The notes below the pieces were generated by a model. That model was not told the DNA's origin, ran no database searches, and saw nothing but the letters and a program-made list of their open reading frames with translations. Source: Paracoccus sp. IB05 (GTDB lineage: Bacteria > Pseudomonadota > Alphaproteobacteria > Rhodobacterales > Rhodobacteraceae). From it: a stretch of DNA of 64,000 nucleotides. The stretch is taken from positions 1-64,000 of the forward strand of contig NZ_JAEFCF010000029.1 in assembly GCF_016405985.1 (NCBI RefSeq). Reading direction: 5' to 3'. The translations under genes were made by a program, and so were the position numbers. Positions 5,771 through 49,978 of this stretch are shown here, one piece after another. The number at the start of each line of letters is the position of its first letter. Position 1 is the stretch's first letter.

Positions 5771-5782
5771 TCGGAGCTATCT

Positions 5783-7540: not shown

Positions 7541-7566
7541 CAGGGCTTCCCTAAGATTGCCCTAGC

Positions 7567-21155: not shown

Positions 21156-21165
21156 CTGTCCCGCC

Positions 21166-26826: not shown

Positions 26827-26850
26827 GGCGAACCTCCATGATTTCATATG

Positions 26851-26884
26851 GACCAAGCATGGTCTATGCGGGGTGCGGAGTCAA
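26851..26884 (-). promoter_or_regulatory. Promoter and palindromic operator of the vapBC-type operon
   Basis: On the minus strand TTGACT (plus 26879-26884) and CATGCT (26856-26861) are 17 bases apart, a near-consensus -35/-10 pair. GACCA-N4-TGGTC (26851-26864) covers the -10, so a bound antitoxin complex would block RNA polymerase. The antitoxin start is about 25 bases downstream. Confidence 0.65.
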
Positions 26885-26981
26885 TCTGAAGCGCATGATG
26901 GGTTCTTGCGGGAACGATCCTGATCCGGTTTAGTGCCCGGCACATACCCTGTGGCCGAGATGGACCCGATGGAGCGAGCGA

Positions 26982-29900
26982 TCATGCCTCGACAATCGGC
27001 CGCAGGCCTATCTGTAGCCGCTCAAGATCGAGACCCTCATGGTCAGCCTTCAACCGTGACAATAGCGTCATAAGATCGTCCTGCCGAGGCTGTCCGAAAG
27101 CCAGGCGGTAAAGCGCAACTGAGCGTTTCAGCCAGCCAAGCAAAGCAGCTTCCTTGCTGAATGGCAGCGTCAGGGTAAAACGCTCGACGCTTGTGCTTCC
27201 CTCAAGGAGCCAGAATGGCTCCAGATCACCCGGCCTTGCAGCCATTTGATGGGCTCTCGTGAACATTTGCGCCCAAGGGTCCGACTGCGGATCAGCCTGC
27301 CTCAGCCACCCTGCCTCCTGTTTGGCCAGATTCAGCCGCACGGCGTGGTTTTTGTATCGATGAACGCGGCCTTCACGCTGCTCCATATCAACAGGGTTGG
27401 TTGGCAGGTTCCAATGCACCAACCTATGGCAATAGGGGTGAAAATCGAGGCCTTCCTGCCCGATCGAAGTCGAAGCCAGAACGAACGGCCTGAAGGGAGA
27501 ATTGAAAGAGGATCTGACGGTGTCTGTCCTTTGTGCCGCCCCTCCCTCCTGGGCTTTTTGCAAAAGACGTGTCGCGAAACGGCCGCGCATGTGGAATGTG
27601 TCCGTGATCTGCAGGCGATCCGCGCGCGCCTTATAGGTGCGAAGGCTGATCGTGGCCGGTCGCAAAGAAATCGCCTCTTCAATGGCTTCTGCGATGCGGG
27701 TGACCACCTTGTCAGGGCCGGTATCGGCAAGGCCCTCTGCTTCCAGCAGGATGTGAACATATTCGTCCAGAACCGATTGAAGATCATGGTCCTGGCTATA
27801 GCGCAGGACAGAACGCCAATAGACGCCGCTGCCGTCGCCGCGTAAAAGAGATTGGCTCTCGGGTTGGTTGAAAAGCCCCCGGAAAGCCATTCCAACCTTG
27901 CCCGCCGCGCTTAGAAGCACAGGGTTGTTCAGCTCCATATCTGGCGCAACGCGATGCAAGGCCCGCAGCGCACAGGTGGCAGGGCTGCCAAGAGCAAGGT
28001 CTGTCAGGTGATCGAGAAGCGTGTTCCTTTGTGGATCTCCGATCAGGTGATCCGCGCCCGCGGCATTGGCCAGCGCCACTGTGTGATCCGACCAGGCCTC
28101 TTGTCCATCATCCCTAAGCCCCCCCTGCAATCCGGCCCCCGTCCGTAACCACGCGAGATAGCCAGGCGTCTCTCTGTCAGCCCAGGCGGCGGCGGCCCAA
28201 TCCCAGGTTTCGACCCGGGCGCCATCGCTATCGTCGTCAGAGGGGAAATCCCTGTCAGCCGTCCTCTGTGGCATGGGCCGCTGAGCAAAGAGAATATGAT
28301 CTGCGATGGGCTCCAGATATTGCCGGGCCGCAGCCCGCATCGCGCCATGATCTTGCAATGGCCCCTGCCTGCGCCAGATATCAAGGGGATCCACGGCAGC
28401 GGCCAAAGCTGGCGACGGGATGACCAGCGGCAGTGCCCGCAACCCGGTTAACCTGTCACGGGTGTGGCGGAAGTTCAGCAATTGCGTCTGCTTGGCGAAA
28501 GCCTTTGAATAGGGATGGCCTTGCTTCGCCATGCCCATTGCCCGTTCGCTTTCAAAAGACAAGATCGCAGCTACGGCATCGGGCACCATCGCCCATTGCG
28601 AGAACAGCAGGAGTTTGCTGGCAGCAATACGATCACCAAAGTAGGGCAAGCTGGGCGGAATCCACAACCGCGTCGCGAGGTCGTTCTCAAAGGCAAGCTT
28701 GCAAAGCGCGCGCATGCGGCCATTGGGGATCGCAAGGGGCTTGTATTCCTCGATGCTGTTCAGATCGATCTGGACGTTTTTCGCCTGACGGATCGCAGAC
28801 AAAAGTGCATCGGAGGGGTTATCCTTCTGGGCTTCAAGCTTCTGGCCCAATTTGTAATCGCGAAGGAAGCTGAGCAGGTATGGGGCGGATTTCCAGTATT
28901 CCACGGTGCCGGGTGCATCCGCAGCCTCGGCAACCCTTGCGACAGCCACGGCTTCGAGAAGGTCACCCGGCTCGACAGTGACTGGAATATCAATGTCGCG
29001 CATCATCGCATCGCGGTCCTCCGTCTCTGCCACACGCTCGGTGCGGGCGATGACCTGACGCAAAGTGCCTTCGATCATGGTTTTGAGGGACAGCGCATCG
29101 TCAAAGCCATTCGGCAGGGTTTGAAGCGCCTGACGGAAGCGCCGCATTTCACCTTCGAGCTCGGCACGGATGTCCGCTCCCTTCTCATCAAAGAGAAAGT
29201 CGATGACATCCAGAAACTCCTTGTAATGGTCGCCGGCATCCGCCTCGTCATCGCGCAATGACAGCATGCGGTATGGCGTCGCCGAGAGCAGAAGTATCCT
29301 TGGCAGGCGACCGTTCGACCCGGCGGCGTTAAACAGTCGGCGCGCCAGTTCGGCCGCTTCACCATCCCCCTGCATCACCTCGGTAAAGCGCTGGAACTCA
29401 TCCAGCACAATCAGATCTGGCTCAAGGGCCTCGGCGCTCTCACGGGCGAGAATGCTGCGAAACTCCCCCACAATCGCTTCACGGCGGCGGTTAAGATCAC
29501 GGCTATTTCCGCGCAGCCCTTTGTAGGCTTGTGCGCAGTTCTCAAGCTCGGCCAACAAATCCGGGCGTTTTGAGGTGGCCGCAGCAAATCTAGAGATGAT
29601 GGATTCTTCCAACTCCTGCTGGTCAATCCAGTTCCGCGTTGTGCGCCAGCCATCCGCGCCGGCATAACCTTGCAACATCTTTGCCACGGCGCGGCGGTCA
29701 TCCAGATGCTCCCAGAGCAGGCGCAAAATCAGTGCGCGCTCTTCTTTCATGCCCCCGCCGCTTTTGAGATCCAAAGAGGTGCCAGGGGTCAGGCTGAAGA
29801 AATTGACGCCCTCTTGCTTGATCCCGCCTGCCTTGGCCAGTTCAATTGCCAGCATGGTGAGCCGTGTCGGCAAAACGCGTGCCTGCGTTTCGCCCATCAC

Positions 29901-30173
29901 ATTCAGCCGCGTGACGTTCTGACGGGCAATCGCGCCGTTCGAGCAAATATAGACAATGTCGATGCGTTTGACGCTGGTTTGCAGCGCCTCGATCGTTCGG
30001 GCGATGACCCCACGCGCGATCATTGTTTTGCCAAGCCCGACCTCGTCGGCCACGAGAAAGTGCCGCACGGGATCCGGGTCAGACAGCAAGCGCCGTGAAA
30101 CATAATCCACAGTGGCGCGCTGGAAGGCCTTGAGGCGGCGCAAGGCGGGTTCAGCGGTGAAGCGCTCGGTCAT
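26982..30173 (-). CDS. DEAD/SNF2-type SF2 helicase with phospholipase D and DUF6361 partners
   Basis: A 1063-residue SF2 helicase. It has a short N-terminal region FQRATVDYVSRRLL, motif I in VADEVGLGKTMIARGV (about 45), motif II as LDEFQRF (about 256), motif III LLSATPYRM (about 296), and C-terminal motifs V/VI in IGQEGLDFHPYCHRLVHWNL and EQREGRVHRY (about 904-935). A long insert separates the two RecA lobes. It is the last gene of the ten-gene minus-strand array, and its start overlaps the upstream stop as TAATG. HepA/DISARM-like helicases paired with phospholipase D proteins occur in defence loci. It likely translocates on DNA and hands it to the nuclease partner. Confidence 0.8.
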   Translation of the reverse strand: MTERFTAEPALRRLKAFQRATVDYVSRRLLSDPDPVRHFLVADEVGLGKTMIARGVIARTIEALQTSVKRIDIVYICSNGAIARQNVTRLNVMGETQARVLPTRLTMLAIELAKAGGIKQEGVNFFSLTPGTSLDLKSGGGMKEERALILRLLWEHLDDRRAVAKMLQGYAGADGWRTTRNWIDQQELEESIISRFAAATSKRPDLLAELENCAQAYKGLRGNSRDLNRRREAIVGEFRSILARESAEALEPDLIVLDEFQRFTEVMQGDGEAAELARRLFNAAGSNGRLPRILLLSATPYRMLSLRDDEADAGDHYKEFLDVIDFLFDEKGADIRAELEGEMRRFRQALQTLPNGFDDALSLKTMIEGTLRQVIARTERVAETEDRDAMMRDIDIPVTVEPGDLLEAVAVARVAEAADAPGTVEYWKSAPYLLSFLRDYKLGQKLEAQKDNPSDALLSAIRQAKNVQIDLNSIEEYKPLAIPNGRMRALCKLAFENDLATRLWIPPSLPYFGDRIAASKLLLFSQWAMVPDAVAAILSFESERAMGMAKQGHPYSKAFAKQTQLLNFRHTRDRLTGLRALPLVIPSPALAAAVDPLDIWRRQGPLQDHGAMRAAARQYLEPIADHILFAQRPMPQRTADRDFPSDDDSDGARVETWDWAAAAWADRETPGYLAWLRTGAGLQGGLRDDGQEAWSDHTVALANAAGADHLIGDPQRNTLLDHLTDLALGSPATCALRALHRVAPDMELNNPVLLSAAGKVGMAFRGLFNQPESQSLLRGDGSGVYWRSVLRYSQDHDLQSVLDEYVHILLEAEGLADTGPDKVVTRIAEAIEEAISLRPATISLRTYKARADRLQITDTFHMRGRFATRLLQKAQEGGAAQRTDTVRSSFNSPFRPFVLASTSIGQEGLDFHPYCHRLVHWNLPTNPVDMEQREGRVHRYKNHAVRLNLAKQEAGWLRQADPQSDPWAQMFTRAHQMAARPGDLEPFWLLEGSTSVERFTLTLPFSKEAALLGWLKRSVALYRLAFGQPRQDDLMTLLSRLKADHEGLDLERLQIGLRPIVEA

Positions 30174-32017
30174 TATTTCTTACCATTTGCTTTTGGCATC
30201 ACGGCCTGAAAAGAGGCCCAGAGCTTGCGGAACTCAGGTGGGATCAGCGGGCCGTCCGGCCCCTCGGCATCCCCGAGGCGTGTGATCAGCCGATCGACAT
30301 CTCGCAGTTGCCGCCCATCGCCCGAAAGCGCACGCACGAGATCTTCAAGTATGGGGGCGTCTTGCGCGATCCCGTCCCCCCAGTCAGCACCACCACCGGC
30401 TCCTGCGGCGAGGAGCGTCTTAACGGCGTCAGAGACATCGCCCAAAAGCAAACGTATATAGCGCAGGAATGCTTCCCGGTTCTCGATGATGGCGCGCAGG
30501 ATTTCCTCGGTTCGGTTCTCTGGCAGATCGATCAACTCCGATCCCAGAGTGATGTCGCGGCAAAAACCGGTTTCCCTGTCCTGAAGCCGGAGCCCGATCC
30601 AGCGGGTCACATCCCGCAGGGCGTGGCGCCCCAGCAATATCTCCTTTTGCGAAAGAAAGGTGATATCGACGCCCCAGGATTCTCCCGGAACCAAAGGCCA
30701 TGCGCGCAAACCAAGAGCTTCAGGCACCTTCACCGCCTCCTTCACCGACAGGTAAAGCGTGACGGAGTTTTCTGGGCCAACCTCACAGCGAAGCCGGGGC
30801 GAAGATCTCGCGATCTGACGCAACAGCTCATCGACGCGCCGCTCGGCCTGCTGCTCCAATTCTGTGACATCAGGGGCATGAGGCACGAAATCGCGCAAAA
30901 AGCGCCCAAGGTTTTCCGGTGACATTTGCGCCTCAACCGAGCCGATATCCCGGGTATAGCCAGAGAGTGTTGCAAAGACCTCGACATTGGCGCCGCTCAG
31001 CAATGCCGCCGATGTGGCATTCCCCGAGCCCATCGTGATTTCTGTGCTCGAGTAATGCTCGGTTACAAAGGCTTTGGCATGCAGGCCCCGAACAGGCCCC
31101 TGATTATGCGCAGTCTCCGAAGCATCCTCGCCGTCCTCGGTTTCCGCCATTTCATCCAAAACCCGGATATGGCCAAACTTTTCGAGGGTTTCGCCCGAAA
31201 GCCCCGCCAGTTCCTCCGAACGCCCGAGGAGCCAGGCGTTTTCGGCGGTCACTTTTCCGAGCAGCGCCCCAAGGGCCGCATCGGTCACAAAGGGCGAAAT
31301 GACCCCGAGTTTTGCACCAATCTTCGGGCGCCAGACTGTCTCGCCAAGGCCATTCACCGCGAAGCTGACGCGTCGCATGGTCGGCGGACAGATCCACTTT
31401 GCGCATTCGAGATCTTTCGCCAGCGAGGTCAACATGGTCCGAACATGCTTTGGCGGCTTCTGGCCGGACGCCATATTGGGAAGCGCACGAAGCAGCCCAA
31501 CAATCGGCGCATTCGTGCGATCTGCCTCCGCCCCGATTGTGCCGTCGAGCGCCAAAGACAGATCCCATGACATATCGGTTGTCAGGTTGCGCGACAAAAT
31601 CGCAAGCCTTAGCCGTGGCTCCTCCCGTCCAGAGATCGAAGTGAAGCGCAAGAGCCAGAGCTTGGGATGAAAGGCACCGCCGCGCGGGGCCACGACCTCG
31701 GTCACCGTATCTTCCAGCAGTGCCGTCAGCCTGTTTGCACCGCGCGGGATCCCGGCAATACGCCCGCCTTCGCAGAAGATTGCCACCTTCTTCGCGACAC
31801 GCTCCAGCCCCTCCAGAAGTGCGAGCGGCGTATCGAGTGTCTGCTTGCGGTTTTCTGCCGCGTGGAATGCAAGGGTTGCCGGGATGACCAAGGCCGTCTC
31901 GAAATCGAGCGAATAGGTCGTCGCCACGGCTGCGTCCAACTCATAACCAGGTGGCGCACGCAGTATTTCGCCATAGAGCACGCGGTTTTCAGGGTCGAGC
32001 GCGATATTATCCGGCAC
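30173..32017 (-). CDS. Phospholipase D-family (HKD-like) putative nuclease
   Basis: A 614-residue protein with two HxK motifs of the phospholipase D superfamily. The first is HPKLWLLRFT (about 117), followed by LRLAILSRNLTTDMSWD. The second is LHAKAFVTEHYSSTEITMGS (about 312), followed by GNATSAALLSG. In both the trailing Asp is replaced by the N/D-rich SRN/SGN patch seen in bacterial PLD-type nucleases. The C-terminal half is helical. The start is GTG 32017, with GGAGG upstream inside the end of the DUF6361 gene. It is probably the DNA-cutting subunit for the downstream helicase, as in DISARM-type pairs; activity is inferred. Confidence 0.75.
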   Translation of the reverse strand: MPDNIALDPENRVLYGEILRAPPGYELDAAVATTYSLDFETALVIPATLAFHAAENRKQTLDTPLALLEGLERVAKKVAIFCEGGRIAGIPRGANRLTALLEDTVTEVVAPRGGAFHPKLWLLRFTSISGREEPRLRLAILSRNLTTDMSWDLSLALDGTIGAEADRTNAPIVGLLRALPNMASGQKPPKHVRTMLTSLAKDLECAKWICPPTMRRVSFAVNGLGETVWRPKIGAKLGVISPFVTDAALGALLGKVTAENAWLLGRSEELAGLSGETLEKFGHIRVLDEMAETEDGEDASETAHNQGPVRGLHAKAFVTEHYSSTEITMGSGNATSAALLSGANVEVFATLSGYTRDIGSVEAQMSPENLGRFLRDFVPHAPDVTELEQQAERRVDELLRQIARSSPRLRCEVGPENSVTLYLSVKEAVKVPEALGLRAWPLVPGESWGVDITFLSQKEILLGRHALRDVTRWIGLRLQDRETGFCRDITLGSELIDLPENRTEEILRAIIENREAFLRYIRLLLGDVSDAVKTLLAAGAGGGADWGDGIAQDAPILEDLVRALSGDGRQLRDVDRLITRLGDAEGPDGPLIPPEFRKLWASFQAVMPKANGKK

Positions 32018-33194
32018 GATGAAGGTCCTCCAGATGGCTTTGGGCGATGCTCCATCGGAAGTTCAGCTCTCCGAGGCCAGATGCGCCGCCCCACCGCGCC
32101 AGTGCTGCCTCGTTACGAAAGCGCGACTTACCCTTCTTGAGAAAAATCTCGCGCTCGCGAACCAGCTGACGCGCCTGATCGTCAGCACCTACCTTCATCT
32201 TGCTGCGGCGCACCGCGTCGAGCCAGGCCGCGATGAAGTCTCGGGTCCGGGGCGAGATACGATGCACGGTGGCCGCTGTCAGATCCCAAAGCTCGGCAAG
32301 CAACCAGCCGTCAAACAGCCCCTGGGGCGTATCGTCGGCCCATGTCTTGAGCCGCGCGTCATAGTCCGCGCGCCGATCATGCCAGGCGCTGGCATCTGCG
32401 CCATGTCGCTTGACCGCCTCTTCACAGAGGAGAAGATTGTAAAGCAACGACGCTCCATGCATCAACCGTGAGAAGCGTTCTGCATGCAAAACAAGGGATT
32501 GCAGGTCGGCAGGCCAGTTTTTTCGGTCAGGATGCAGCCAGATGAATTTGCAGTCGACGGTTTTCTGCACGCGAGACAGTAGCGTAAACAGACTGACGGG
32601 TGCCTCTTTTACGAGCCGATCACGCAGGAAATCAGCCTCTTGCGGGGTCATTTGGAAATCGACCTTGAAACCCGGATCTTGCAAAAAACCATCAGGTGCC
32701 GCGGGCAGCCCTGCGCTCCAAAGCTGATGAGCCTCACCGGGGGAGGCCTCGAGGCAGGCATTTCTGCTGCCATCAAACTGCCGAATGCCGAGGCTGCGCA
32801 GGCCCGCCCAATAGACATCGCTGGGCAGGCGTTTCAGGCTCTCGCGTGCTTCGCTCCCAATTACCCCTTTACTCTCGCCGCCCCGATCCAAAGCGTCGAT
32901 CAATCGGATCTCCAAGGCGCGGGCGTAATCCCTTCGGGAAGCCACAGACCCCTTTCCTTGCCCGGCAATCTGATAGATCCAGGGCACAAACATCATATAA
33001 CGTAGCCGCGTCTGGATGGTTGATGTGCCAGGAAACAGCAGATCCGCCACAGCATCACGGATGGCTCCAAGACCGAGTTCGTCGCGACTGTCCTCGGCGC
33101 CGAACAGATCCATGATGCGCCGCGTTCGGTCGCGATCCGCCTGATCAAAATCAACCCATCCGAAAAATGACACGTCCAACCTCGGTTTCTGCAA
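32007..33194 (-). CDS. DUF6361 family protein
   Basis: A 395-residue protein with the recognisable DUF6361 opening (SFFGWVDFDQADRDRTRRIM, then SRDELGLGAIRDAVADLLFP and GTSTIQTRLRYMMFVPWIYQ). The start appears to be TTG 33194 without a clear ribosome site, which is the weakest start in this operon. No catalytic motif is known to me for the family. It is regularly seen next to a phospholipase D protein and a helicase, and here the gene overlaps the PLD gene by 11 bases. A DNA-recognition or adaptor function is a guess. Confidence 0.75.
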   Translation of the reverse strand: MQKPRLDVSFFGWVDFDQADRDRTRRIMDLFGAEDSRDELGLGAIRDAVADLLFPGTSTIQTRLRYMMFVPWIYQIAGQGKGSVASRRDYARALEIRLIDALDRGGESKGVIGSEARESLKRLPSDVYWAGLRSLGIRQFDGSRNACLEASPGEAHQLWSAGLPAAPDGFLQDPGFKVDFQMTPQEADFLRDRLVKEAPVSLFTLLSRVQKTVDCKFIWLHPDRKNWPADLQSLVLHAERFSRLMHGASLLYNLLLCEEAVKRHGADASAWHDRRADYDARLKTWADDTPQGLFDGWLLAELWDLTAATVHRISPRTRDFIAAWLDAVRRSKMKVGADDQARQLVREREIFLKKGKSRFRNEAALARWGGASGLGELNFRWSIAQSHLEDLHRAG

Positions 33195-33290
33195 TATGTT
33201 ATGCGATCAAAAAGAACCGCGAGAATAGCCTTCGGCGAACGCCTCACGCCCTGCAAACTGGCGCTGGATCGAAGGACGGAGCGTGGCCGG

Positions 33291-36200
33291 TCAACTGGTT
33301 TCGGCTTGCGTGAGGTGATCAGACGGCATGACGCCCCTGGCCAGCTCCAGCCGCCCATGATCAACCCAAAATACTGCCACCCCATGCAGCGGATGCTGCG
33401 GGAACAGGCGGGCAACCAGCCCGGCATAGGAAGAAAGCTGCGGCCAATAGGGGCCGAAGCCCGCTCCGTCCCCGCCAGATTTATGGTCGATCAGCAGCGC
33501 ACCCTTGGGGCCGACGGCCATAAGGTCGATGGTTCCGGGGATCTCGGCGCCATCGGGCGTATGGCTGAGGACGGGGATTTCGGCCCTGAGATCGGTATAG
33601 CCCTCGGCCTTGAGCCATTCCTTCAGCGCTTCGGCACGGTTCGACACGAGTGTCAGCGTGGCCTCGTCCAGCCCGGTTGCGCGGAGCAGCGCCGGGGAAA
33701 GATCCGGGCGGGTCAGACAGGTGCGCAGAGCCAGGTGCAAGGCAGTGCCGCGTGCGGCGTCATTGATGGCTTCGGGCCACGCCGCGCCAAGGGAGATACT
33801 TTGTGTGGCGGGCGCTGCGGCAGTGACCCGCGCCTGCGAGGGTTGTAGCCGCCAGGGCGTCAGGGTCGTTGGGGGCAATGGCATGGCATGGCCGAAGCGG
33901 GCGGTATCGGCGTCGCCACCGGTTGTATACTGGGTCAGTCCCGCCTGTTCGGGCAGCTGCAAGATCTGTGCCGGACACAGGGCGGTGCCTATGCGCAAAG
34001 TGCCGTTGTCGATCTTTGGGGCACAGCAATCGTTGAAAATGTGGAAGAGGTTTTTTGCCTCGGGTGCGTCCTCATCGCGGTCCTTGAGGAAGCCGGGCCA
34101 CTCCAGCACCAGCCGGTCGCGGGCGCGGGTCAGTGCTACATAAAGCAGGTTTTTCGCATTGGCCTCGAAGGCCTCGCGTCGGTCCTCGATGAAGCGGCGC
34201 TCGGCCTCGGGCGCGGAAAAGCCCGGGGTGTGGATCAAAGCCGCTGATCCCAGCACCACGGCCATATCATCGATCCGGTCCAGGGCATCGAAGCGGGTTG
34301 CTGTTGAGCCAGGCCATTCCTCAATGCCATGGTCGAATTCGGCTACAACCGTGATCGGCCATTCCCGACCCTTGGAGGCGTGCCAGGTGACGATCTCGAC
34401 CGCCTCGGCGCTGTTGGCCGATGGGTCGGGGTGGCGGTCGAAATCGCGCTCGCCTGCACGGGCGTCCAGCCAGCCAAGGAAAACCTTGGCCGTTTCGCCA
34501 TGGAAGCCCGAGGCTGCCTTGAGGTCGCGGTGGGCCGCCTCGAACTCCGCCGCCTCAGACTCCAGCCGCAACAGATCGGCGCGTGATTGGGCCGCGTCAG
34601 GTTGGCGATCCGCCCAAAGGCGCAGACCGGCTGCGTCAAGCACCAGATCGAGGCTCGCACCAACCGGCAAAAGCGCAAGCCGGTCGGAGAGGCCCGCAAG
34701 CCGCATCAACACCGGATCATCAGCCAGCCGTCCGTCGATCTGGGCCGAGAGCGCGTCCTGCAAAGGCAGCGGCTCGGGCCCCAGGGTGCGCAGCAAAAGC
34801 CCCGCATGGATATCTGCCGGATTGGCGGCAAAGGCGAGGCCCGCGCGGGCGGCCACGACCACCGTGCTTGCAGCCCAGCCGTCTTCATTGATGCGGACCG
34901 GCACGCCGCGCGCGCGCAACTCTTCTGCATAACGGGCGGCGGTGGAGTGACGGCAGACCAGCAGTGCGATGTCCGACGGGCGGACAGGACGTGCGGCCTT
35001 GCTGTGCCGGTCGGTGATGTTCTCTGTCCCGGTCAGGATCTGCGCGATACGTTCGGCGATATGCTCCGGAGGCTGAGAGTATTTCTGAGATCGCCGCCCT
35101 TGCGTGGCATTCAGCACCTCAATCGCCGGGCCGGGCACCGGGTCGCGGGTCGGGGCCAGCGGGTTGTAGCCCGCGCCAAAGAGGCCCGCCCCCATCGCAT
35201 TGACGAATTCCATCACCGCAGGCGTCGAGCGCCAGTTGCGATCCAAGGGCTGCGTGGCATCCGGGTTGGCGGCCGCCAGAGCCTGCGACAGGCGCGGGTC
35301 GGCACCCTGAAAGCCCATGATCGACTGCTTGACATCGCCCACCAGAAGCGTGCGCGGCGCATGTGCGCCCAACTGCCAGAGCAGCGCGAATTGCACCGGG
35401 TTGGTATCCTGAAACTCGTCGATGATGACGCAGTCGATCTCGTCCAGCACAGCCTGACGCACCGCCGGGTCGGTCCGCAGCAGTCGTTCTGCGCCGGTGA
35501 TCATATCGGCAAAGTCGATCAGGCCGAGCGATTTCTTGCGCGCCTCATAGGCCTCCATCACCTCTTGCGCGCAGGCGATCAGGCACGACAAATGCAGTTT
35601 TGCATCCGCCAGCGGGCCGGGATGTGCGGGCAGAGCATCGGCCGCCTCCATGATCGCTGTGGCAAGGTCGTCATAACCCGGGGGCGTTTTCGTGCGGCTG
35701 TTCGAGGTGAAAAGCCCGCGCAGCCCCTGCCAGACCGACCAGTCTCGGTTCAGCAGGTCCGGGGTTCGTGCCACGCGCTGGAACTGGGAAAGGTTCTTCT
35801 CCAGCGTCTCGCGCGGGCCTTTGGCGGTGACGGTGGCCATGCCGCCTTCGGGGAAAGCCGCCAGCATCGCCTGCACCGCTGCGCACAGCGCCTCGCCGGC
35901 GGCAGCAGGATCGGCCAACACCTCACCATAGACCGCATCAAGCCGGCCGAGTGCAGGCGCGATCAGGCCGGGGTCGCGCCCCTTGTCACCAAGTCCGCGC
36001 AACAGGTCGATCATCGCCAGCACGCGGGCGCGCAGGCTGTCTTCGACCGTCTCGCCCTTTTGCCAATTCGCCTCATAGCCGAAACGCTCCGGCTCGGCCT
36101 TTATCGGATCCAGCGACTTCGCATGGGCCAAAGCCTGCCGGATCAGCAGGTCACGCTCGGCATCACCCAGATGTCGCGGCTGCGGCGAGGCCCCCGCCGC

Positions 36201-36491: not shown

Positions 36492-39091
36492 TCCTCCTCA
36501 ACCTGACGGATGAACGCGGTGACGAGGGTTGAGCCGTCGGTCAGCGCATAGGGGGTGAAGCCCGCCTCTTTCTTAAAAAACGCCTCGTCCTGCGAGGTGT
36601 TCAGCACCACCTGACCCGCGCCAAGTTCCGCCAGCCGCTGGGCCAGCATCTCAACCGCGCCCGCATTCACCGCATCCCCCATGTCTCGGGCGGGAGACCC
36701 TTCAGGCAGCGCAAGGCCCGAGGTCAAGAGCCCGCCGTCATTCATCAGGTGATAGGCGACGGCGACCTTGCGCCCGACCAGCGGATCCATCCCGTCATCC
36801 TCGCGCCGATGCGGGCGGGCGATCATGTCCGCGTAAAGCCCGGCTTGCAGATCCCAGCCCGCCTCCATCCGCGCACGCCGCCCCTTGGTGCCGCTTTTCT
36901 TGTGGTCAACCACCAGGAGCGCACCGTCCGGCAGTTCGAGGATCGCATCGGCCTTGCCATGCAGGTTGATGCCATGCGCCTCACCCGCCAGCCAGATCTC
37001 ATTGCCGATGATCTTCGCCCCAAGCGCCAGCAGATGTTCGCGCCAGCGCAGGGCGGCGGTCAGGATCTCGCGCTCCAGCCCGCGGCGCTCCATTTCCCAT
37101 GAGGGGCTGCGCAGGAAACCGGCATGGCGGGTCAGCGCGCGGTCATAGGCCTCGGGGATCAGCGTGGCCAAAGCGTCTGGGTCGGGGATGCCAGCGTCTG
37201 CCGGGAAGACATGCTCGAACACCTCATGGGCGATATTGCCCTTGGCCATGACGTCAAGCTCCTCGGCGGACCAGGACATGTCTTCGGCCCCCACCTCGGC
37301 CAGAAGCCAGGCAAGGGGGCTGACCAGCAATGTCTCCAGCCGCGAGGGTGATTGCGGTTTCGCCGTCCCGTCATCACGTTTTCTGAGCGAGAGGAGGTCG
37401 AGGCCGGGGAAGGTCAGCGCCTCGGGAAGATCAGGCGGCTCGACCAAAGGCGGCAGGTGGTGATGCGCCACCGGCCAGTCTGCGGGGGCGATGCGCGACA
37501 GATCAAGGATCAGATCCGCCGCATCCTCAATCCCCTCGACGGCGCGGGCCACCAGCGACAGCCCGGCCGAGGGTTGCAGCCGTGCGCCCGCCAGATCACG
37601 CCAGGGGATCAGAAAGGTGACGCTGTCCGAGACCGCCTGCAACTGTTGATCGAAAAGCGAGATCCCCTGCGCCAGCCCCTCAGCCCGGCCACGCAGTTGC
37701 AGGCCGGTCCCCGCACGGATCGCCGTAATCTCGCTGTCGAGGAACAGCGGATTGGCGCGCGGGCGGGTCGGATACAGCCCGTCGGTGAAATCCGTGATGA
37801 TCAGATGGGCGCAAGGACGCCAGGGGCTTTCATGCGCCGACCACAGGCTGACACCTTCCAGATTGCGGTCCGCATCGGGCATTGTCGGCGGCATGACCGG
37901 AATGGCGCGCAGGATCGCCTCCCAATCCGGCGTGCCGTCGCCCGGGGGGACGGCCAGACGGGCGCGAACCTCATCGCCACGCGTGATGTGCTCGCAGATG
38001 CGGTCCAGCAGGTAACGAAGCTGCGCAAGGCTGCCCGCCGAGGCGCGGATATTATCCCAAAGCTCTTTATGCGCGGGCGTGGCGGCAAGGATCGAACCCC
38101 GGAAATCGCCGCCCATCAGGCTTTCCGCCAGATCGCGCCCGGTTTGCGCACCCCAGGGCATCAAGGGCGACAGCGCAAGGCTGGCCAGCACCATCGCAGG
38201 CATCGGCGGGCGTTTCGCCAGTGCCAGATGCAGGGCGGTCTCGCCAATCACATCGCGCTCGGGCGCCCGGCCGGGCAGGCCAGAAAGCGGCACGCCCTGC
38301 GCTGCAAAAGCCCGGGCAAGCTGTCGCGCATCCCCTGCCGTCAGCACGGCGATCTGGCGTGCCGGGGTGCCGGATTCGATCAGGGCACGGGCGCGGGCGG
38401 CGGCAAAATCAGCACAGGCCGCAGGGTCGCGCAGGCCAAAAAAGGCAAGGCTGGGGTCTGTCGGTCCGGGCGTGATATCCGGCGCAGTCACTCCGCCTTG
38501 CAGCGCATTAAGCCGGCAACCCTGCGATGCGGCACGGGGCCTGTCAGAGGCCTGAACCGCACCGAATTCGTGTTTCAGCCGTTCATAAAGCGCCCGAAAC
38601 ACCGCCGGGGCCAGCGGATCAAGCGAGCCTTCGACCACCGGCAGCGGATCGAGAAACTGCCCCTGGGGCAAGGTCAGCACATGGCGCACCGGGGAAAGTC
38701 CCTCGGGCAGTGCCTCGCCCAATTTGCACCAAAGCCCGATCAGCGCGGACAGATGCCGTTTCGCGCGGCTGTCGGGCAAAGCATCGACATGCGGCACCGC
38801 CAGGTCCGGGGTGGCCAGAACCAGATCCGTCAGCGCGGCAGTCACCGCCGAAATCGTCTCGACCGGGGCATTGGCAAGGCTTTCGGCCCAGACCGGGTCC
38901 GGCACTTCGGCAATGGCACGCCCCGGCGCCCATTCCGGCGCAACCCTGGCCAGCGAAAGCTCGGCCAGAGTTGTGTCATTCGGGCGATATTGCAGGCCGG
39001 AACGGGGATCGGCGACGAGAAAGGGATAAAACATGAGCTGCCTGCAATTCTTGATTGTGAATACTTTGAGGGAGAGGCCGGGCAAGATCAA
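36488..39091 (-). CDS. AddB-like PD-(D/E)XK nuclease partner
   Basis: An 867-residue protein. The N-terminal ~600 residues are a degenerate helicase-like region. The C-terminal part is a RecB/Cas4-like nuclease with E in NIAHEVFEHVF, D in NLHGKADAILEL (about 710), VVDHKKSGTKGRRA (about 725) and WDLQAGLYADM. This is the AddB arrangement, but no iron-sulphur cysteine set is visible. The frame opens at TTG 39091 overlapping the upstream stop as TTGA; ATG 39034 (MFYPFLVADPRSG) is an alternative start. It is coupled to the AddA-like gene downstream. Together they would degrade DNA ends. Confidence 0.72.
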   Translation of the reverse strand: MILPGLSLKVFTIKNCRQLMFYPFLVADPRSGLQYRPNDTTLAELSLARVAPEWAPGRAIAEVPDPVWAESLANAPVETISAVTAALTDLVLATPDLAVPHVDALPDSRAKRHLSALIGLWCKLGEALPEGLSPVRHVLTLPQGQFLDPLPVVEGSLDPLAPAVFRALYERLKHEFGAVQASDRPRAASQGCRLNALQGGVTAPDITPGPTDPSLAFFGLRDPAACADFAAARARALIESGTPARQIAVLTAGDARQLARAFAAQGVPLSGLPGRAPERDVIGETALHLALAKRPPMPAMVLASLALSPLMPWGAQTGRDLAESLMGGDFRGSILAATPAHKELWDNIRASAGSLAQLRYLLDRICEHITRGDEVRARLAVPPGDGTPDWEAILRAIPVMPPTMPDADRNLEGVSLWSAHESPWRPCAHLIITDFTDGLYPTRPRANPLFLDSEITAIRAGTGLQLRGRAEGLAQGISLFDQQLQAVSDSVTFLIPWRDLAGARLQPSAGLSLVARAVEGIEDAADLILDLSRIAPADWPVAHHHLPPLVEPPDLPEALTFPGLDLLSLRKRDDGTAKPQSPSRLETLLVSPLAWLLAEVGAEDMSWSAEELDVMAKGNIAHEVFEHVFPADAGIPDPDALATLIPEAYDRALTRHAGFLRSPSWEMERRGLEREILTAALRWREHLLALGAKIIGNEIWLAGEAHGINLHGKADAILELPDGALLVVDHKKSGTKGRRARMEAGWDLQAGLYADMIARPHRREDDGMDPLVGRKVAVAYHLMNDGGLLTSGLALPEGSPARDMGDAVNAGAVEMLAQRLAELGAGQVVLNTSQDEAFFKKEAGFTPYALTDGSTLVTAFIRQVEEE

Positions 39092-39684
39092 CGTATCAGC
39101 GCCGATGTTTTACGGGCCGAGGGCCGTAAAAGCGCCAGAAAAAGACCCGATAACGTATAAGGATCATCGCGCAGGACCGGCTGACCCGCATCGGTTTGCA
39201 CAAGCCCTTGTGCCACCAGCGCCGCTTGTGGTGCCAATGCGGCCCAGACATCGGCCTCGTCGAGATTGCAGCACCAGGCGAGGGCGGCCTCATCGGAAAG
39301 CCCGGTTTCCCGTCGCAACACCGCGGTGAAATCCGCGATCATCCTGCCGCGCTGTTGCAGCGCGAGGTGGCTCAGGATGACCGTCTCAGATGGGCCAAGG
39401 CCCAGATGTTCCGCGATGACACGCAGACGGGCGAGAGGCTGGTCATCGGGCACGACAGTATGCTGAAGGCGTGTCTGGAGATGAGCCGCTAACGCCCGCC
39501 AATCCTGCGCCTCAACTCCGGGCTTGTGACGCCCCACCGGGGAGATCGGGGGTAACGGCCCGAATATCTCGGGTCGACCGCCGAGCCAGCCTGCCAGTAT
39601 CAGCGCCTCGGCCCGGTTCGCCGGGATAGCATCGACAAGCCGCGCCACTATGCCGTGGAGCATATAGGTTTCGATTGTGTTCAT
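39088..39684 (-). CDS. Stand-alone N-domain paralogue of the double-AAA ATPase
   Basis: A 198-residue protein that aligns by eye, end to end, with residues 1 to about 185 of the AAA protein encoded at 42104-44107. HGIVARLVDAIPANRAEALI matches LDLVARLACRFGPASRMAKE, both are followed by GWL, and EHLGLGPSETVILSHLAL (93-109) matches GHFGLSQVEIGILTFVAL (86-102). The LSWFCRTEEAEIRAAL/WCCNLDEADVWAAL region and a GLVQ segment also match. It then stops, lacking both ATPase domains. It is coupled to the AddB-like gene. It may act as a regulator, adaptor or decoy for the AAA protein; a truncated second ATPase gene is the alternative. Confidence 0.65.
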   Translation of the reverse strand: MNTIETYMLHGIVARLVDAIPANRAEALILAGWLGGRPEIFGPLPPISPVGRHKPGVEAQDWRALAAHLQTRLQHTVVPDDQPLARLRVIAEHLGLGPSETVILSHLALQQRGRMIADFTAVLRRETGLSDEAALAWCCNLDEADVWAALAPQAALVAQGLVQTDAGQPVLRDDPYTLSGLFLALLRPSARKTSALIR

Positions 39685-39746
39685 CCTGCCCTCGGTGGTT
39701 TGAGGGCAGGATGGAGGTGGGCTGCGTCAGATTCGGGCGGATCAGT

Positions 39747-40322
39747 TTAGTCGATGGTCAGTTTTACCATTTCGTCACCGACCTGCTTTATCTTCTTCAT
39801 CTTGTCCGCATCGAGGGTCTCATAGTTGATGTTCACCTCTGTCGATGCAAAGAGGACGTAACATCCTTCATGGTCCTTCTCTCTGACCACGTTGCCGCCT
39901 TTTTGAATGGTGTCTACTGGAATATATTTTCCACCCGCGACATCGTATTTATCGACCCTGAGCGTGATGATGTTATCGACAATATCAACGGTAAATTCGA
40001 ACTGATGCTTGCCGCTGTCAGCCGTGACGGCTTTCCAGAACATTTTTTCGTCCCAAATTATGACAGGGGTCATATGCTGCCACTCTATATATGCACGATC
40101 TTTCGGGATTGATTTAAAAGCAATATCCCACAGCTCACTCATGCGCCGAATGAAGTCCCTTCGCACATGCGCAGCAGCAACAAGTGCATCATTGAATTCC
40201 AGATACTGCTCGCTGCTTTCAGCCTCTATCGACTGCCTGCCAGACAACATGCTGATCAGGCCATCTATTGCCTGCCTGAACCTGTCGTCGTTGAAATATT
40301 TCCGGAGCGGGGGCGTGGTCAT
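39747..40322 (-). CDS. Unknown 191-residue protein paired with a PD-(D/E)XK nuclease
   Basis: I do not recognise this family. The N-terminal half is helical and charged (RQAIDGLISMLSGRQSIEAE) and the C-terminal half is a beta-rich domain (HQFEFTVDIVDNIITLRVDK, GCYVLFASTEVNINYETL). There are no cysteine or catalytic motifs. The ATG lies 2 bases after the stop of the nuclease gene, so the two are coupled. Both are clearly AT-richer than the rest of the array and may have entered as one unit. The beta-rich half might bind nucleic acid or the nuclease; this is speculation. Confidence 0.5.
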   Translation of the reverse strand: MTTPPLRKYFNDDRFRQAIDGLISMLSGRQSIEAESSEQYLEFNDALVAAAHVRRDFIRRMSELWDIAFKSIPKDRAYIEWQHMTPVIIWDEKMFWKAVTADSGKHQFEFTVDIVDNIITLRVDKYDVAGGKYIPVDTIQKGGNVVREKDHEGCYVLFASTEVNINYETLDADKMKKIKQVGDEMVKLTID

Positions 40323-40324
40323 GT

Positions 40325-41122
40325 CTATTTCTTTTTTCCTTGCTTGAAGGCGCCAATTCGAGACCAGAGGTGGAAGAGGAAGTTCTGGAATGGCGGATCA
40401 TCTGTCATTTCCATCTGGTTTAAATTCAGCCAGAAACGGTGCCATGAAATGAATCGCCACGATCGGCGCACAGAATATGGCAATTTCGAAAATTCATCTG
40501 GATTCAGGCCAATGACGACAAGGTCAAGATGGCATTCCGGAAGCTCATTCCTGATGAACTCATGGTATGAGTTTAGCTGACGCTCTGTAAGTTTATGGTT
40601 GAATTTTGTTTCGACAAGAAGAACATTCTTTCCGTTTTCACCCCAGCGACACAACAGGTCAATACGTTGTCTTCCTGCGAAAGACTCTGCTTCCGCCGTG
40701 AAGTCTGAAAGCTGAGCAAAATCCGGCGAAAATTCGCACCCCATGGCGCGAAGAAATGCCTGAGCGCGCGCCAGTCTCAACTGGTCATTGTCCGCGTCCA
40801 ATAAGCTGCCAAGGGCTCCTGTTACCTGCGGCTCGCTCATATGCAATCCCCAGCTTAAGCGCGAATAATCGAATGGATGGCTTTTCTGGTGGAGTGCAAA
40901 GGTGCGTGACACCCCGCTGTCGTCATAAAGCAGATTGATGGCCCCTGCGGAAATTTCTTTGTTGATATTACTGGAGTATGTCAGAAATAGTCCTTTAAAA
41001 TAATCTTGAATCCGATCCGACACGCCAGGGAAGTCCAGTTCAAGATTCCCGATATAACCAACTTCAATTTTTTCAGCTTTTTTTCTTCGGCTCACTTTAT
41101 GCCGCCTTGTTTTTTTATACAT
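40325..41122 (-). CDS. PD-(D/E)XK nuclease superfamily protein
   Basis: A 265-residue protein with the classic nuclease core in its middle: E in MSEPQVTGALGSLLDADN, D in GRQRIDLLCRWGENGKN, ExK in VLLVETKFNHKLTERQLNSY, then Q and Y of the alpha-helix. This resembles the PDDEXK_4-type family. The N-terminus is strongly basic (MYKKTRRHKVSRRKKAEK), suggesting nucleic-acid binding. It starts 2 bases after the WYL regulator stop and is coupled to an unknown gene downstream. Base composition is lower in GC than the flanking genes. It is probably an effector or accessory nuclease of the array. Confidence 0.72.
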   Translation of the reverse strand: MYKKTRRHKVSRRKKAEKIEVGYIGNLELDFPGVSDRIQDYFKGLFLTYSSNINKEISAGAINLLYDDSGVSRTFALHQKSHPFDYSRLSWGLHMSEPQVTGALGSLLDADNDQLRLARAQAFLRAMGCEFSPDFAQLSDFTAEAESFAGRQRIDLLCRWGENGKNVLLVETKFNHKLTERQLNSYHEFIRNELPECHLDLVVIGLNPDEFSKLPYSVRRSWRFISWHRFWLNLNQMEMTDDPPFQNFLFHLWSRIGAFKQGKKK

Positions 41123-41124
41123 GC

Positions 41125-42054
41125 TTAGCTTATAATCTCAACCATATCCCCCCACCTCGCCAGATACCATTCCATTTCCTGCCGTCCTCCAGCGCGGAAG
41201 CGGACGATCAGAGAGCCGTCTTCTTGTCGCTCCATGACCTGTTTGGGGTGGAATACATAGCCCGCCGCATCATCGGCAACATCGGGTAGAAACCGCCACT
41301 CCACATCCTGCGGTTCCTCGCGCCAGATACCGAAACTTTCTGACAGCCATTCTTGCAGATCAAATCCCTCGGGGCGGGTATAAATATCGGTCTCCAGCGA
41401 AACCCGTTCAAATCCAGCCAGTGAGAAAAGCCTCAGGTCATCCTGATATTCGCTCCAGGCCAGCAGATATTGACGACCTTGCCCAAGCAGCATGGCAATC
41501 GGGCCGAGGCGGGTATTGCGCGACAGTTTGCCAGAGCCGCGCGCCCGATGATCGGTCGAGACCATGACACCGGCCAGAATGGCTTCGCGCAATTGCGTCA
41601 GGATCTCGAGCGAGAGATTTTCACGCGGGCCGGGGCGAAAGGCAACGCCATCTGCCATCATTTGCGCCTCGAGATCAGGTTCCAACCTGCGCAGCCGGTC
41701 TGCCCGGAACATAGCCTTCACCTTGGCCAAAAGTCGCTCCAGCGCCTCGGCAGTCAGATCGTCGCCTTCCCGGCGCGCAATCGCCACGGCCCTATGGCCC
41801 GCCGTCAATTCGTCCAACGTGGGTTCGACCATCTTGCCCAGCGACCCCGGGGGAAACCGCCAGTATTTGCGCCCCATATCGCCTGCGATTTCCTCGATTT
41901 GCGGATAGGCGTTGCGCAGGGCATCGCGCATGCGCTCGGCCGTGCGGCGCGAGACCGCGAATTCGCGCTCGATATCCGTCAGGCAAATACCCTCGGCCGA
42001 GCCCTGCATCATCAAAGCCAGCTTTTGCAGATCTTCCTGACGGGCGTAACGCAT
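41125..42054 (-). CDS. WYL-domain transcriptional regulator
   Basis: A 309-residue regulator with the start at 42054, where GGAGG precedes the ATG; the frame opens earlier at 42114 inside the AAA gene end. An N-terminal winged helix (MRYARQEDLQKLALMMQGSA, then LTDIEREFAVSRRTAERM) is followed by a WYL domain (GPIAMLLGQGRQYLLAWSEY, then LFSLAGFERV) and a WCX-like C-terminus. WYL regulators of this shape (BrxR/CapW type) repress defence operons and respond to nucleic-acid ligands. It lies second in the array, 49 bp behind the AAA gene, so it probably controls the array. No operator could be assigned with confidence. Confidence 0.82.
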   Translation of the reverse strand: MRYARQEDLQKLALMMQGSAEGICLTDIEREFAVSRRTAERMRDALRNAYPQIEEIAGDMGRKYWRFPPGSLGKMVEPTLDELTAGHRAVAIARREGDDLTAEALERLLAKVKAMFRADRLRRLEPDLEAQMMADGVAFRPGPRENLSLEILTQLREAILAGVMVSTDHRARGSGKLSRNTRLGPIAMLLGQGRQYLLAWSEYQDDLRLFSLAGFERVSLETDIYTRPEGFDLQEWLSESFGIWREEPQDVEWRFLPDVADDAAGYVFHPKQVMERQEDGSLIVRFRAGGRQEMEWYLARWGDMVEIIS

Positions 42055-42103
42055 AGGGCCTCCGGGCAATACTGCGCCACTTTTGCGGCGCGGTGTCAGC
42101 GCG

Positions 42104-44107
42104 TCAACGGCCAAAGCCGATCGGGCGTGCCGCCCCCTCTTTTGCCTCTGCCTCTCGGGTCAGCTCACGCAGGATCTCGTGCGGGCCTGTCTCACCAAGG
42201 GCACGCATCCTGCGGGCAACATTGGCGAAATCTCCTGGTGTCAGTCGGTCGGGCAGCAGAAGACCCACAGGCACCTCCGCCGCGAAATGGGCGCGCCAGG
42301 CATGCGTCAGCTGATCCCCCGTGAGGTAATCAAAACGGATGCGGAAGGTGAACCGGCGCTGCGTGGCAGGATCCAGGTTTTCGATCAGGTTCGTGGTGCA
42401 GACAAAGGGCAGCGGATGGCATTCCATCCAGGTCAGCATCTCGTTGACCTGGGCAACCTCCCACGAATGCCGGGCATTGCGGCGATCCGCCAGCAGGCTG
42501 TCGGCCTCATCAAAGATCAAAAGCGCACCATCTGCGCGTGCCTCGGCGAAGGCGCGTGCAATGTTCTGCTCGCTCTCGCCCACCCATTTCGAAATCAGAT
42601 CGGAGGCGCGCTTTTCCAGCACAGGCATGCCGAGGATCCGGGCCAGATGGCGGGCCCATGCGCTTTTGCCGGTGCCCGCAGGGCCGTCGAGACAGAAACT
42701 GATCCGTCGGGGGGCGTCAGACGGGGCCAGCCGCGCCGCGATCAGGGCCAGGTCGGTGTCGGTATTGGCCAGATCCGCTTGCCAGGGCACTTCGGAATGG
42801 TGACGCGGCGGGGCATCAATGCCACCCCGGGCCAGCCGCGCCGCTGCATCCAGCACCTGACTGACCATGGTATCGCCGCCCTGACACAGCAGCGCCACCC
42901 GCATTGCGTCTGACACCAGCGCCGGCGCCTGATCGTGGCGTTCGGCCAGATGCGGCAGAGCCTCGGGGCCGAGGCCCGCACCGTGCCGCGCCTCCAGCCG
43001 TTGCCAGATCCGTGCGCGGACCCGACCAGAAGGCGGCCGCATCAGGGCGGAATAGCTCATCCGCCGCAGGAAGGCCGGATCGCAGGATTCGACCGAGTTC
43101 GTGGTCCATATTACAGGGATCGGGTTCGTTTCCAGCATCCGGTTCGCGTGAACCTTGGACGGGCGATCATGGCCGAAGAACGGGTTCGAGCCGCCAAAGA
43201 GATCCTCCATCTCGTCAAAGAGCAGGATCGTATCGGACCGCTCACCCAGCATCCGGCAGGCCATGCCCATCTCGGCCAGTCGTTCGCGGCGCGAGGGCTC
43301 GCCCCCGTCATCATCGTGCTCGCCAACGGCGCGCAGTTCGGCGCCGATCTCACGGGCCAGAACCTTGGCGAATTCTGTCTTGCCGGTGCCGGGCGGACCA
43401 TAGAGCAGGATGTTCACCCCCGGAACGCGCTCAGCCAGGGCCCGCGTCATCAGGTCGCGCATCAGGGCCGCATCCTGACCCAATCCTTCGAAATCTTGCC
43501 ATTCGGCATCGGGTTTCGGTGTGGCCGGAAACATCTGGCCGATCAGATCACCGACCCCGCCCACATCAGCCAGCAGCGCCATCAGCAGCCGCTCTGAAAG
43601 ATCGAATGGTATCCGGTTGTGGCGCCGGCTGCGCATGCGCTGCACCAGGCCGGAGGTGACGAGTCGCCCCGATGGGCGCAGAGCCGCGCGGATCTCTGCC
43701 TCCTCCGTCCGGCAAAACCAGGACAACAACAGCGGAATCGTCACCTCTTTCGTTTCGACCGCACCATCGATGACATGCTCGAAACCGTCGAACTCTTTGT
43801 AAAGCGCGACAAAGGTCAGGATGCCGATCTCAACCTGCGACAGGCCGAAATGCCCGCCAAGAACGGTGCAGTTGCGCTCGAGGATTTCACCTTCGCCACC
43901 CCCCGCCTGCGGCACCAGCTCGCGGCTGAGGTGGCGGACCTTCTCCCACCAGATCGCACCGGGGCGGGAGGGTGGGCGCTCCGGGCATTCGACCTCGGTC
44001 AGATACTCCAGCCAGCCCGGCAGCTCTTTTGCCATGCGGCTGGCCGGGCCAAAGCGGCAGGCAAGGCGGGCAACCAGGTCGAGGGTGAGGTGGTGCTCGT
44101 GGCTCAT
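42104..44107 (-). CDS. Double-AAA+ ATPase, first gene of a ten-gene array
   Basis: A 667-residue protein starting at 44107, chosen because GGAGAA lies 4 bases before this ATG; the longer open frame overlaps the divergent gene. Residues 1-185 are a helical/winged domain duplicated at 39088-39684. The first AAA+ domain has Walker A YGPPGTGKTEFAKVLARE (about 237) and Walker B LLFDEMEDLFGG (about 297). The second has DGPAGTGKSAWARHLARI (about 474) and LLIFDEADSLLADRR (about 529) with QRRFTFRI as arginine finger region. It could be a remodelling or sensor ATPase. It heads an unbroken minus-strand series down to 26982. Confidence 0.78.
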   Translation of the reverse strand: MSHEHHLTLDLVARLACRFGPASRMAKELPGWLEYLTEVECPERPPSRPGAIWWEKVRHLSRELVPQAGGGEGEILERNCTVLGGHFGLSQVEIGILTFVALYKEFDGFEHVIDGAVETKEVTIPLLLSWFCRTEEAEIRAALRPSGRLVTSGLVQRMRSRRHNRIPFDLSERLLMALLADVGGVGDLIGQMFPATPKPDAEWQDFEGLGQDAALMRDLMTRALAERVPGVNILLYGPPGTGKTEFAKVLAREIGAELRAVGEHDDDGGEPSRRERLAEMGMACRMLGERSDTILLFDEMEDLFGGSNPFFGHDRPSKVHANRMLETNPIPVIWTTNSVESCDPAFLRRMSYSALMRPPSGRVRARIWQRLEARHGAGLGPEALPHLAERHDQAPALVSDAMRVALLCQGGDTMVSQVLDAAARLARGGIDAPPRHHSEVPWQADLANTDTDLALIAARLAPSDAPRRISFCLDGPAGTGKSAWARHLARILGMPVLEKRASDLISKWVGESEQNIARAFAEARADGALLIFDEADSLLADRRNARHSWEVAQVNEMLTWMECHPLPFVCTTNLIENLDPATQRRFTFRIRFDYLTGDQLTHAWRAHFAAEVPVGLLLPDRLTPGDFANVARRMRALGETGPHEILRELTREAEAKEGAARPIGFGR

Positions 44108-44294
44108 GTCATTCTCCATCTGTTGGGGCAGAGATGACGGCACGATACGCCAGATATGGACGCATGCCTGTTGCGGGGTTGTGCAGGTGTGTAGGGGCCG
44201 CAATCCAGCATACGTCCGAATCTGTCGCATTGTCGGGCCAATGTGCTTTCTATTCTCTGCTTCAAAGCGAGGCTGAGAACAGGAAAGGACGAAC

Positions 44295-49141: not shown

Positions 49142-49146
49142 GCCCC

Positions 49147-49857: not shown

Positions 49858-49919
49858 CCCGCCATCCCGCCTTTGCTTCAGTCGTCAAGCATTCCTTAAC
49901 AACTGCCGGACACCAGAAC

Positions 49920-49955: not shown

Positions 49956-49978
49956 GCAATACGATGAAAGCCTGACGC

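Follow-up and report, generated by a model that had tools for sequence, protein, structure and literature searches.

An Azaca variant with a closely coupled AddAB-like helicase-nuclease in Paracoccus sp. IB05

Described systems and the layout of the locus

In its described form, the Azaca defence system consists of three genes, which is what plasmids of Cronobacter, Halomarina, and B. elkanii carry. The helicase-nuclease AddAB is composed of two subunits, and a set of iron-sulphur cysteines is a feature of its AddB subunit. Relatives of both were found together on a 64,000-nucleotide stretch of the Paracoccus sp. IB05 genome (contig NZ_JAEFCF010000029.1, positions 1 to 64,000; referred to as the window), within an array of ten genes that form a single minus-strand run from 44107 to 26982 (Table 1).

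The last three genes of this array are adjacent, follow the order ZacA, ZacB, and ZacC, and give nearly full-length PADLOC matches; the gaps between them are -11 and -1 bp. Motif inspection revealed two HxK motifs in ZacB and helicase motifs in ZacC. Unlike the three-gene form, ZacABC of the window has an AAA-WYL unit and a closely spaced AddBA pair in front of it. The window locus is an Azaca variant with a closely coupled AddAB-like helicase-nuclease. We read it, with a probability of roughly 0.55, as a composite defence locus, in which a horizontally spread AddBA pair (clade I) is coupled to an exchangeable cassette of a phospholipase D (PLD)-type nuclease and an SNF2 helicase, here ZacABC, with an AAA-WYL unit and inserted slot genes upstream. 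The observed basis of this reading is formed by gene identities, intact motifs, the AddB-like fold, recurrent coupling, and cassette exchange; the mechanism outlined at the end is what we infer.

An earlier note on this DNA had reported ten closely spaced or overlapping genes on one strand, labelled the domains of each, and counted four nuclease components. The list of open reading frames (ORFs) bears out the spacing, with gaps of -11, 2, 2, 62, -4, -4, 96, -11, and -1 bp in order across the array. Domain searches agree with all ten labels, and nuclease motifs are intact in four proteins, namely PDDEXK_4, AddB, the AddA C-terminus, and ZacB. The claim that the array matches no named defence system stands for the AddB/AddA pair, which matches no PADLOC Azaca model, but not for the last three genes: since these are Azaca, the array holds a named system.

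Several other described systems share parts of this layout. Azaca itself is listed with a PLD-like domain (PMC10952713). The combination of a PLD nuclease with an SNF2-type helicase is also known from DISARM, but the window array lacks DrmA, DrmB, and a methylase, and its helicase matches ZacC best, not DrmD. The note had likewise set DISARM aside, and none of these three proteins appeared among the ten as a best or strong match. An assignment to DISARM or an ARMADA-like system was rejected, as no DrmA, DrmB, or YprA-type helicase was a best match; AddA, RecB, and Azaca are absent from the main text of the ARMADA preprint (PMC12458937). The AddA-like protein scores to the models of GajB, the UvrD helicase of Gabija, but it is 1066 aa long, has nuclease motifs of its own, and is partnered by AddB instead of the OLD nuclease GajA. 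An AddB-like PD-(D/E)XK protein whose helicase part is inactive, which the window protein resembles, has been described beside CRISPR-like repeats (PMC10910872). In the region 26000-46500 of the window, however, no interspaced repeat array of the CRISPR type was found. Direct repeats there fall into seven families, each with 2-3 imperfect copies that lie scattered, and there is one short tandem repeat. Fusions of Cas4-like and UvrD proteins have been discussed as repair-like (PMC5704561). Among the literature matches listed, no paper named AddAB-like pairs as defence genes.

The AddBA pair and its coupling to exchangeable cassettes

All helicase and nuclease motifs of the AddA-like protein are intact, its nuclease being of the RecB type. 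In the AddB-like protein, the nuclease motifs are intact and Walker A is absent. This protein has no PADLOC match, and the PADLOC matches of the AddA-like protein are UvrD helicases, such as GajB and a reverse transcriptase-associated helicase. Against the model of alphaproteobacterial AddA (TIGR02784, addA_alphas), the AddA-like protein scores 152.6 bits, far under the cut-off of 860.75. A canonical AddA (1098.4 bits, over the cut-off) is encoded on another contig of the same genome, so that AddBA is an extra pair.

A structure model of AddB, built from 28 alignment rows (mean predicted local distance difference test score 85.8; predicted template-modelling (TM) score 0.63), shows an AddB-like fold. 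Its five best Foldseek matches in the PDB are Bacillus AddB (E 2.5e-20 to 2.5e-18; best 4cej_B and 4ceh_B, probability 1.00), followed by AdnA and, lower, RecC. By sequence alone, the relationship reaches E 0.017 at best. AddB probably starts at 39034 and not at 39091, as a start before that residue is impossible in 25 of 44 close relatives (those whose ORF, counted from its earliest ATG, GTG, or TTG, is exactly 848 aa long); with this predicted start, the overlap with the preceding gene becomes a gap of about 53 bp. The cysteine set of AddAB was not found: no column of alignment A9 holds Cys in at least half of its 33 clade I rows, and one column does in 15 of 28 rows (A10). Among the 10 closer rows of A1, three columns hold Cys in 8 rows; the C-terminal nuclease contains none of these columns. 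The window pair thus has the anatomy of AddAB, i.e. two subunits, an AddA with UvrD motor and C-terminal nuclease, and a nuclease AddB with an AddB-like fold. It differs in its AddA, which falls below the addA_alphas cut-off and into a separate clade, in the cysteines, and in being carried in addition to a canonical AddA, in defence loci and on plasmids. Judged by its sequence features, the pair is predicted to work like AddAB, but the equivalog score and the cysteine set do not class it as an AddAB orthologue.

The presence of a canonical AddA also fits another explanation, namely that AddBA serves as a backup or guard of the host AddAB/RecBCD, a copy too diverged to be blocked by phage inhibitors that bind DNA ends (those like Gam, gp2, or gp5.9), and thus keeps an end-degrading partner available for DNA-cutting systems. 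The AddA proteins of clade I, of a second lineage (clade II, see below), and of the canonical type form three very distant clades. Druantia III and Zorya II act in synergy only with an intact RecBCD, and inhibitors of this enzyme block the synergy (PMC13192584); Gabija acts against phages by which RecBCD is antagonised (PMC12407980); both are precedents for a RecBCD-type enzyme as a defence partner. The divergence of AddBA may, however, be neutral, and the guard explanation overlaps with the composite locus. We regard it as improbable.

The scan of genome contigs, in which the best 80 of 110 AddB relatives were kept and which therefore leans to close ones, yielded 79 loci, all from Alphaproteobacteria by name. 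AddB of clade I was also detected by tblastn on 11 plasmid records (7 predicted conjugative), and in one viral contig (L119). The pair is infrequent. Of 385 genomes drawn evenly from the class, AddB of clade I occurred in that of the window alone; among 100 relatives, there was some match in five and a full-length one in three, including this genome. A total of 92 loci were examined, 91 of them with usable AddB (L086 was dropped, as no AddB match was long enough); a locus with a short AddB fragment (L018) was excluded from the counts, and the plasmid match H10 stayed outside the locus comparison. AddA adjoins AddB in 80/91 loci; of the other 11, most are broken or stop a short distance past AddB. 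The constant element of these loci is AddBA.

The genes next to AddBA were compared in 74 loci with AddA adjacent and at least 1.2 kb beyond it (six loci below 1.2 kb were left out). Directly downstream, ZacABC is present in 13 and a second cassette, the c4-c7-c5 trio, in 25; in three more, c5 lies directly upstream of AddB. The spacing is tight. AddA and ZacA are -8 to 14 bp apart in 12 of the 13 loci and 96 bp in the window; the gap between AddA and c4 measures -14 to -1 bp in 23 of 26 loci, and that between c5 and AddB is -4 bp in 3 of 3. The 26 loci include L021, where AddA is split and c4 comes after its longer part; in L079, the trio is nearby on the opposite strand.

ZacA is rare, too: in the 385-genome sample of the class, 8 genomes have it, one of them with a weak match. 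Its adjacency to AddBA is therefore not a chance placement, although defence genes cluster. Eleven strong ZacA matches were obtained from two genome samples, and in five of them AddBA, or a part of AddA at a contig end, lies directly upstream. On plasmids, nine ZacA loci were chosen for reading from 45 records. Five have AddBA of the second lineage directly before ZacABC; the other four do not, and one of these has an insertion sequence just upstream. ZacA was not confirmed in any viral contig.

The AddBA pairs found before ZacABC on plasmids of Rhizobium, Bradyrhizobium, Agrobacterium, Mesorhizobium, and Shinella all belong to clade II. Its AddA is 32-33% identical to that of clade I over about 260 residues, and the relationship between the AddB proteins is hardly detectable. 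AddB of clade II occurs on 64 plasmid records (40 predicted conjugative) and in 8 of the 385 class-sample genomes, once as a fragment. The three AddA clades are each supported and far apart, and their branching order is without support: clades I and II group together with 66/19, and the alternatives have approximately unbiased test values (p-AU) of 0.28 and 0.44. These values neither favour nor disfavour two independent recruitments of AddBA to Zac. Clade II was also found with Shango in L161, where SngA (E 1.3e-103) belongs to a set placed 2 bp before AddB (the other two genes were assigned by position and annotation), and beside a Shango-related set in L179. Other partners are a SMODS nucleotidyltransferase with E1 and JAB (the CD-NTase/E1/JAB set; L162), and methyltransferase, helicase, and restriction genes (L164). 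As a side observation, genes for multiubiquitin, E1-like, and DUF6527 proteins adjoin clade II AddBA at L139:8332-14157, together with a UvrD-type protein of 1133 aa.

Clade I has further neighbours as well. It follows a relative of brxL at 124 bp in 10/74 loci, or 2/54 after dropping rows at least 95% identical; this is shared with BREX-1, but the window array itself contains no BREX gene. UvrD, AddB, and RecB are absent from the main text of a BREX census, its supplements aside (PMC12839542). In one or two loci each, clade I precedes TmtA of Tiamat with one small gene between (L084), GmrSD at 228 bp (L062), or AAA_5 genes at 366 and 134 bp (L060 and L081). Tentatively, a broader reading is possible, in which AddBA is a portable DNA-degradation module. 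Two deep, often plasmid-borne lineages would be joined in register to unrelated DNA-targeting systems (Azaca, the Azaca-like AAA-WYL-PLD-helicase set, BREX-1, and Shango; Tiamat, GmrSD, AAA_5, and CD-NTase/E1/JAB in one or two loci each), and would form a host-independent, possibly inhibitor-resistant hub. The plasmid records of both clades are also what one would expect if AddBA served repair, recombination, or establishment of its mobile element instead of defence. We consider this very improbable, given that the close neighbours read include Azaca, BREX-1, Shango, Tiamat, GmrSD, and CD-NTase/E1/JAB.

Evidence for cassette exchange came from a quick tree of AddB with 54 non-redundant rows (20 rows dropped at 95% identity). 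The labels Zac, c4-c7-c5, and neither change 18 times on it, and well-supported branches force at least 9 changes of the Zac label. The latter is not more clustered than in shuffles (277 of 500 as low), in contrast to the trio label (0 of 500). Loci L037 and L033 carry Zac and the trio, respectively, and their AddB and AddA are 94% identical. AddB, AddA, AAA, and WYL of the window are 76-86% identical to those of L061, L050, and L064, but their ZacABC only 43-47%. The closest relatives of the window ZacABC are in L066, L082, and L083 (57-68%), whose AddB is only 41-46% identical. Probably, the Zac cassette of the window was replaced as a block downstream of AddA.

The second cassette resembles the first in two of its three proteins. 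In tested representatives, c7 is a PLD protein that resembles ZacB (a weak match, E 2.6e-9) and c5 a helicase of the SNF2/ResIII type; c4 matches no family and no PADLOC 2023 model. Comparison of c4 with ZacA by hhalign gave a probability of 0.2%, at the low power of alignments of only 3 and 6 rows. The trio with AAA and WYL is distributed among Alpha-, Beta-, and Gammaproteobacteria and Thermodesulfobacteriota, and occurs without AddBA on plasmids of Pantoea, Desulfosarcina (with WYL on the other strand), and Rhodoferax (judged from annotation and gene order alone). It looks like a candidate Azaca-like system. Sets of AAA, WYL, hypothetical, PLD-type, and SNF2 helicase genes without AddBA are located at L159:5897-14757, L160:5515-15010, and L165:9722-20349, on plasmids from Gammaproteobacteria, Betaproteobacteria, and Desulfosarcina.

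A number of observations weigh against the composite locus. The AddB tree carries long-branch warnings, and the match of the fold, though real, is a loose one (TM 0.50/0.40; root-mean-square deviation 10.8). The identities of AddB and ZacA correlate (Pearson 0.79; 66 pairs of 12 Zac-bearing loci), so that the two are largely inherited together and the loci lack independence; the window, with its exchange, is among the exceptions. L057 has no AddA in nearly 10 kb past AddB. Five of the 11 strong ZacA matches have no AddBA upstream, and one is not judgeable. Plasmids of Cronobacter, Halomarina, and B. elkanii carry ZacABC without AddBA; since ZacABC occurs alone, AddBA is dispensable for Azaca as a system. 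Also, defence genes cluster anyway, and neither cassette is directly beside AddBA in 33/74 loci. Together with AAA/WYL and AddBA without a cassette in L016, L089, and L093 and the solitary ZacABC, the latter count favours AddBA, often with its own WYL and with or without AAA, being a self-standing defence that lies before ZacABC through island clustering and acts separately. Evidence against this explanation comes from the spacing (stop and start overlap, or nearly abut, where AddA meets either cassette variant and where c5 meets AddB) and from the recurrence of the coupling in the second, deep AddBA lineage; we regard the explanation as rather unlikely.

Upstream genes and surroundings of the array

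The double AAA protein has both of its Walker A/B sets intact. A relative of it is present anywhere in the fetched stretch of 37/74 loci, WYL in 48/74, and both in 36/74; a recount within set distances gave 36/81, 50/81, and 35/81, respectively. The AAA-N paralogue aligns to the N-terminal domain of the AAA protein with a score of 109, compared with a mean of 38 and a maximum of 63 in 300 shuffles.

The slot between WYL and AddB is occupied in the window by the low-GC PD-(D/E)XK and unknown genes and the AAA-N paralogue. With a simple gene caller, none of these three genes had a cluster mate in 88 other AddB-region loci. For the AAA-N paralogue, the negative covers these loci alone, as no search of public collections was made with it. 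The PD-(D/E)XK gene had no match in plasmids or phages. The 191 aa protein had no relative in plasmids, and in viral contigs no candidate was confirmed. A different PDDEXK_4 protein is encoded 73 bp past AddBA in one locus (L068). Elsewhere, the slot often holds a fusion of phosphatase and ADP-ribosylglycohydrolase, present somewhere in 30/74 loci, which hints at ADP-ribose or NAD-linked signalling. In L033, the slot is filled by a dual-specificity phosphatase fused to an ADP-ribosylglycohydrolase (L033:2953-4521). Other occupants are a calcineurin-like phosphoesterase (L040) and an HNH protein (L045).

The array is a mosaic in composition, not one ten-gene system. The GC content is 0.65-0.66 in AAA and AddBA, 0.63 in the AAA-N paralogue, 0.59-0.60 in WYL and Zac, and 0.46-0.48 in the PD-(D/E)XK and unknown genes. 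One conserved ten-gene system was rejected because of the three slot genes without mates. The single unit assumed in the earlier note does not hold for the same reason and because of the mosaic composition; the co-occurrence in order elsewhere, which the note proposed to look for, was found for seven of the families, with another gene in the slot (L050, L061), and not for the remaining three. A simple scan of both strands of 26500-45400 gave 3 promoter-like sites (5.1 in shuffles) and 25 terminator-like sites (15.9 in shuffles, standard deviation 4.4), the latter mostly short stems within genes. These sites give no grounds for dividing the array, nor do they establish it as a single operon.

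Table 1. Genes of the minus-strand array, listed from 44107 down to 26982.
Gene product	Coordinates	Strand	Characteristics
Double AAA+ ATPase	42104..44107	-	667 aa; PF00004 x2
WYL-domain regulator	41125..42114	-	329 aa; WYL + WCX
PDDEXK_4 nuclease, slot gene	40325..41122	-	265 aa; PF14281 E 1e-9; GC 0.46
Unknown protein, slot gene	39747..40322	-	191 aa; GC 0.48; no family match over cut-off
AAA N-domain paralogue	39088..39684	-	198 aa; no ATPase domain; alignment z 13
AddB-like subunit, clade I	36488..39091	-	PDDEXK_1; best fold match AddB; probable start 39034
AddA-like helicase-nuclease, clade I	33291..36491	-	UvrD motifs I-VI + C-terminal nuclease motifs
ZacA (DUF6361)	32007..33194	-	PADLOC ZacA E 3.9e-121
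ZacB (PLD-type nuclease)	30173..32017	-	PADLOC ZacB E 2e-159
ZacC (SNF2/DEAD-type helicase)	26982..30173	-	PADLOC ZacC E 0, 1032.9 bits

Divergent from the AAA gene is a sirtuin-like reading frame, judged by eye (44554-45333, plus strand). A type I restriction-modification set, separate from the array and on the opposite strand, follows at 46354-52885; its specificity function is represented by two consecutive half-length genes, 47904-48539 (211 aa) and 48539-49141 (200 aa). On the other side (15263-25780, minus strand) are genes for a coiled-coil McrB-like AAA protein (PDC-M26A), a DUF2357/McrC-like protein, a coiled-coil protein, an unknown protein of 794 aa, and an SF1 helicase with MTES_1575 nuclease. 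This set resembles a CoCoNuT-type type IV restriction system (PMC11090510). HipA-type genes flank the island at 9353-10708 (minus) and 54612-55892 (plus). An ORF for a fused prohead protease and capsid protein and a phage-type integrase are located beside it (3887-9060, plus), so that the island may be part of an integrated element or adjoin one.

Proposed mechanism and implications

The proposal of the earlier note that the array is a DNA-degradation type of defence with an AddAB-like pair is upheld. In the composite locus, the ZacC helicase and the ZacB nuclease would recognise invading DNA and cut or open it. As suggested by motifs and fold, AddBA may then load on DNA ends, whether produced in this way or injected, and degrade the molecule via its two nuclease sites, while AAA and WYL may set expression or activation. 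Since the system brings AddBA along, often as part of a plasmid, RecBCD-type end processing would be independent of the host AddAB.

Additionally, this work points to an Azaca-like trio, in which genes for a hypothetical protein, a PLD protein, and a helicase are accompanied by AAA and WYL. If the composite locus is real, a dedicated mobile AddAB-like enzyme placed in register would make end processing a shared, portable defence function. This would help to explain how plasmid-borne systems work across hosts, and the role of the enzyme could be probed by removing its genes.

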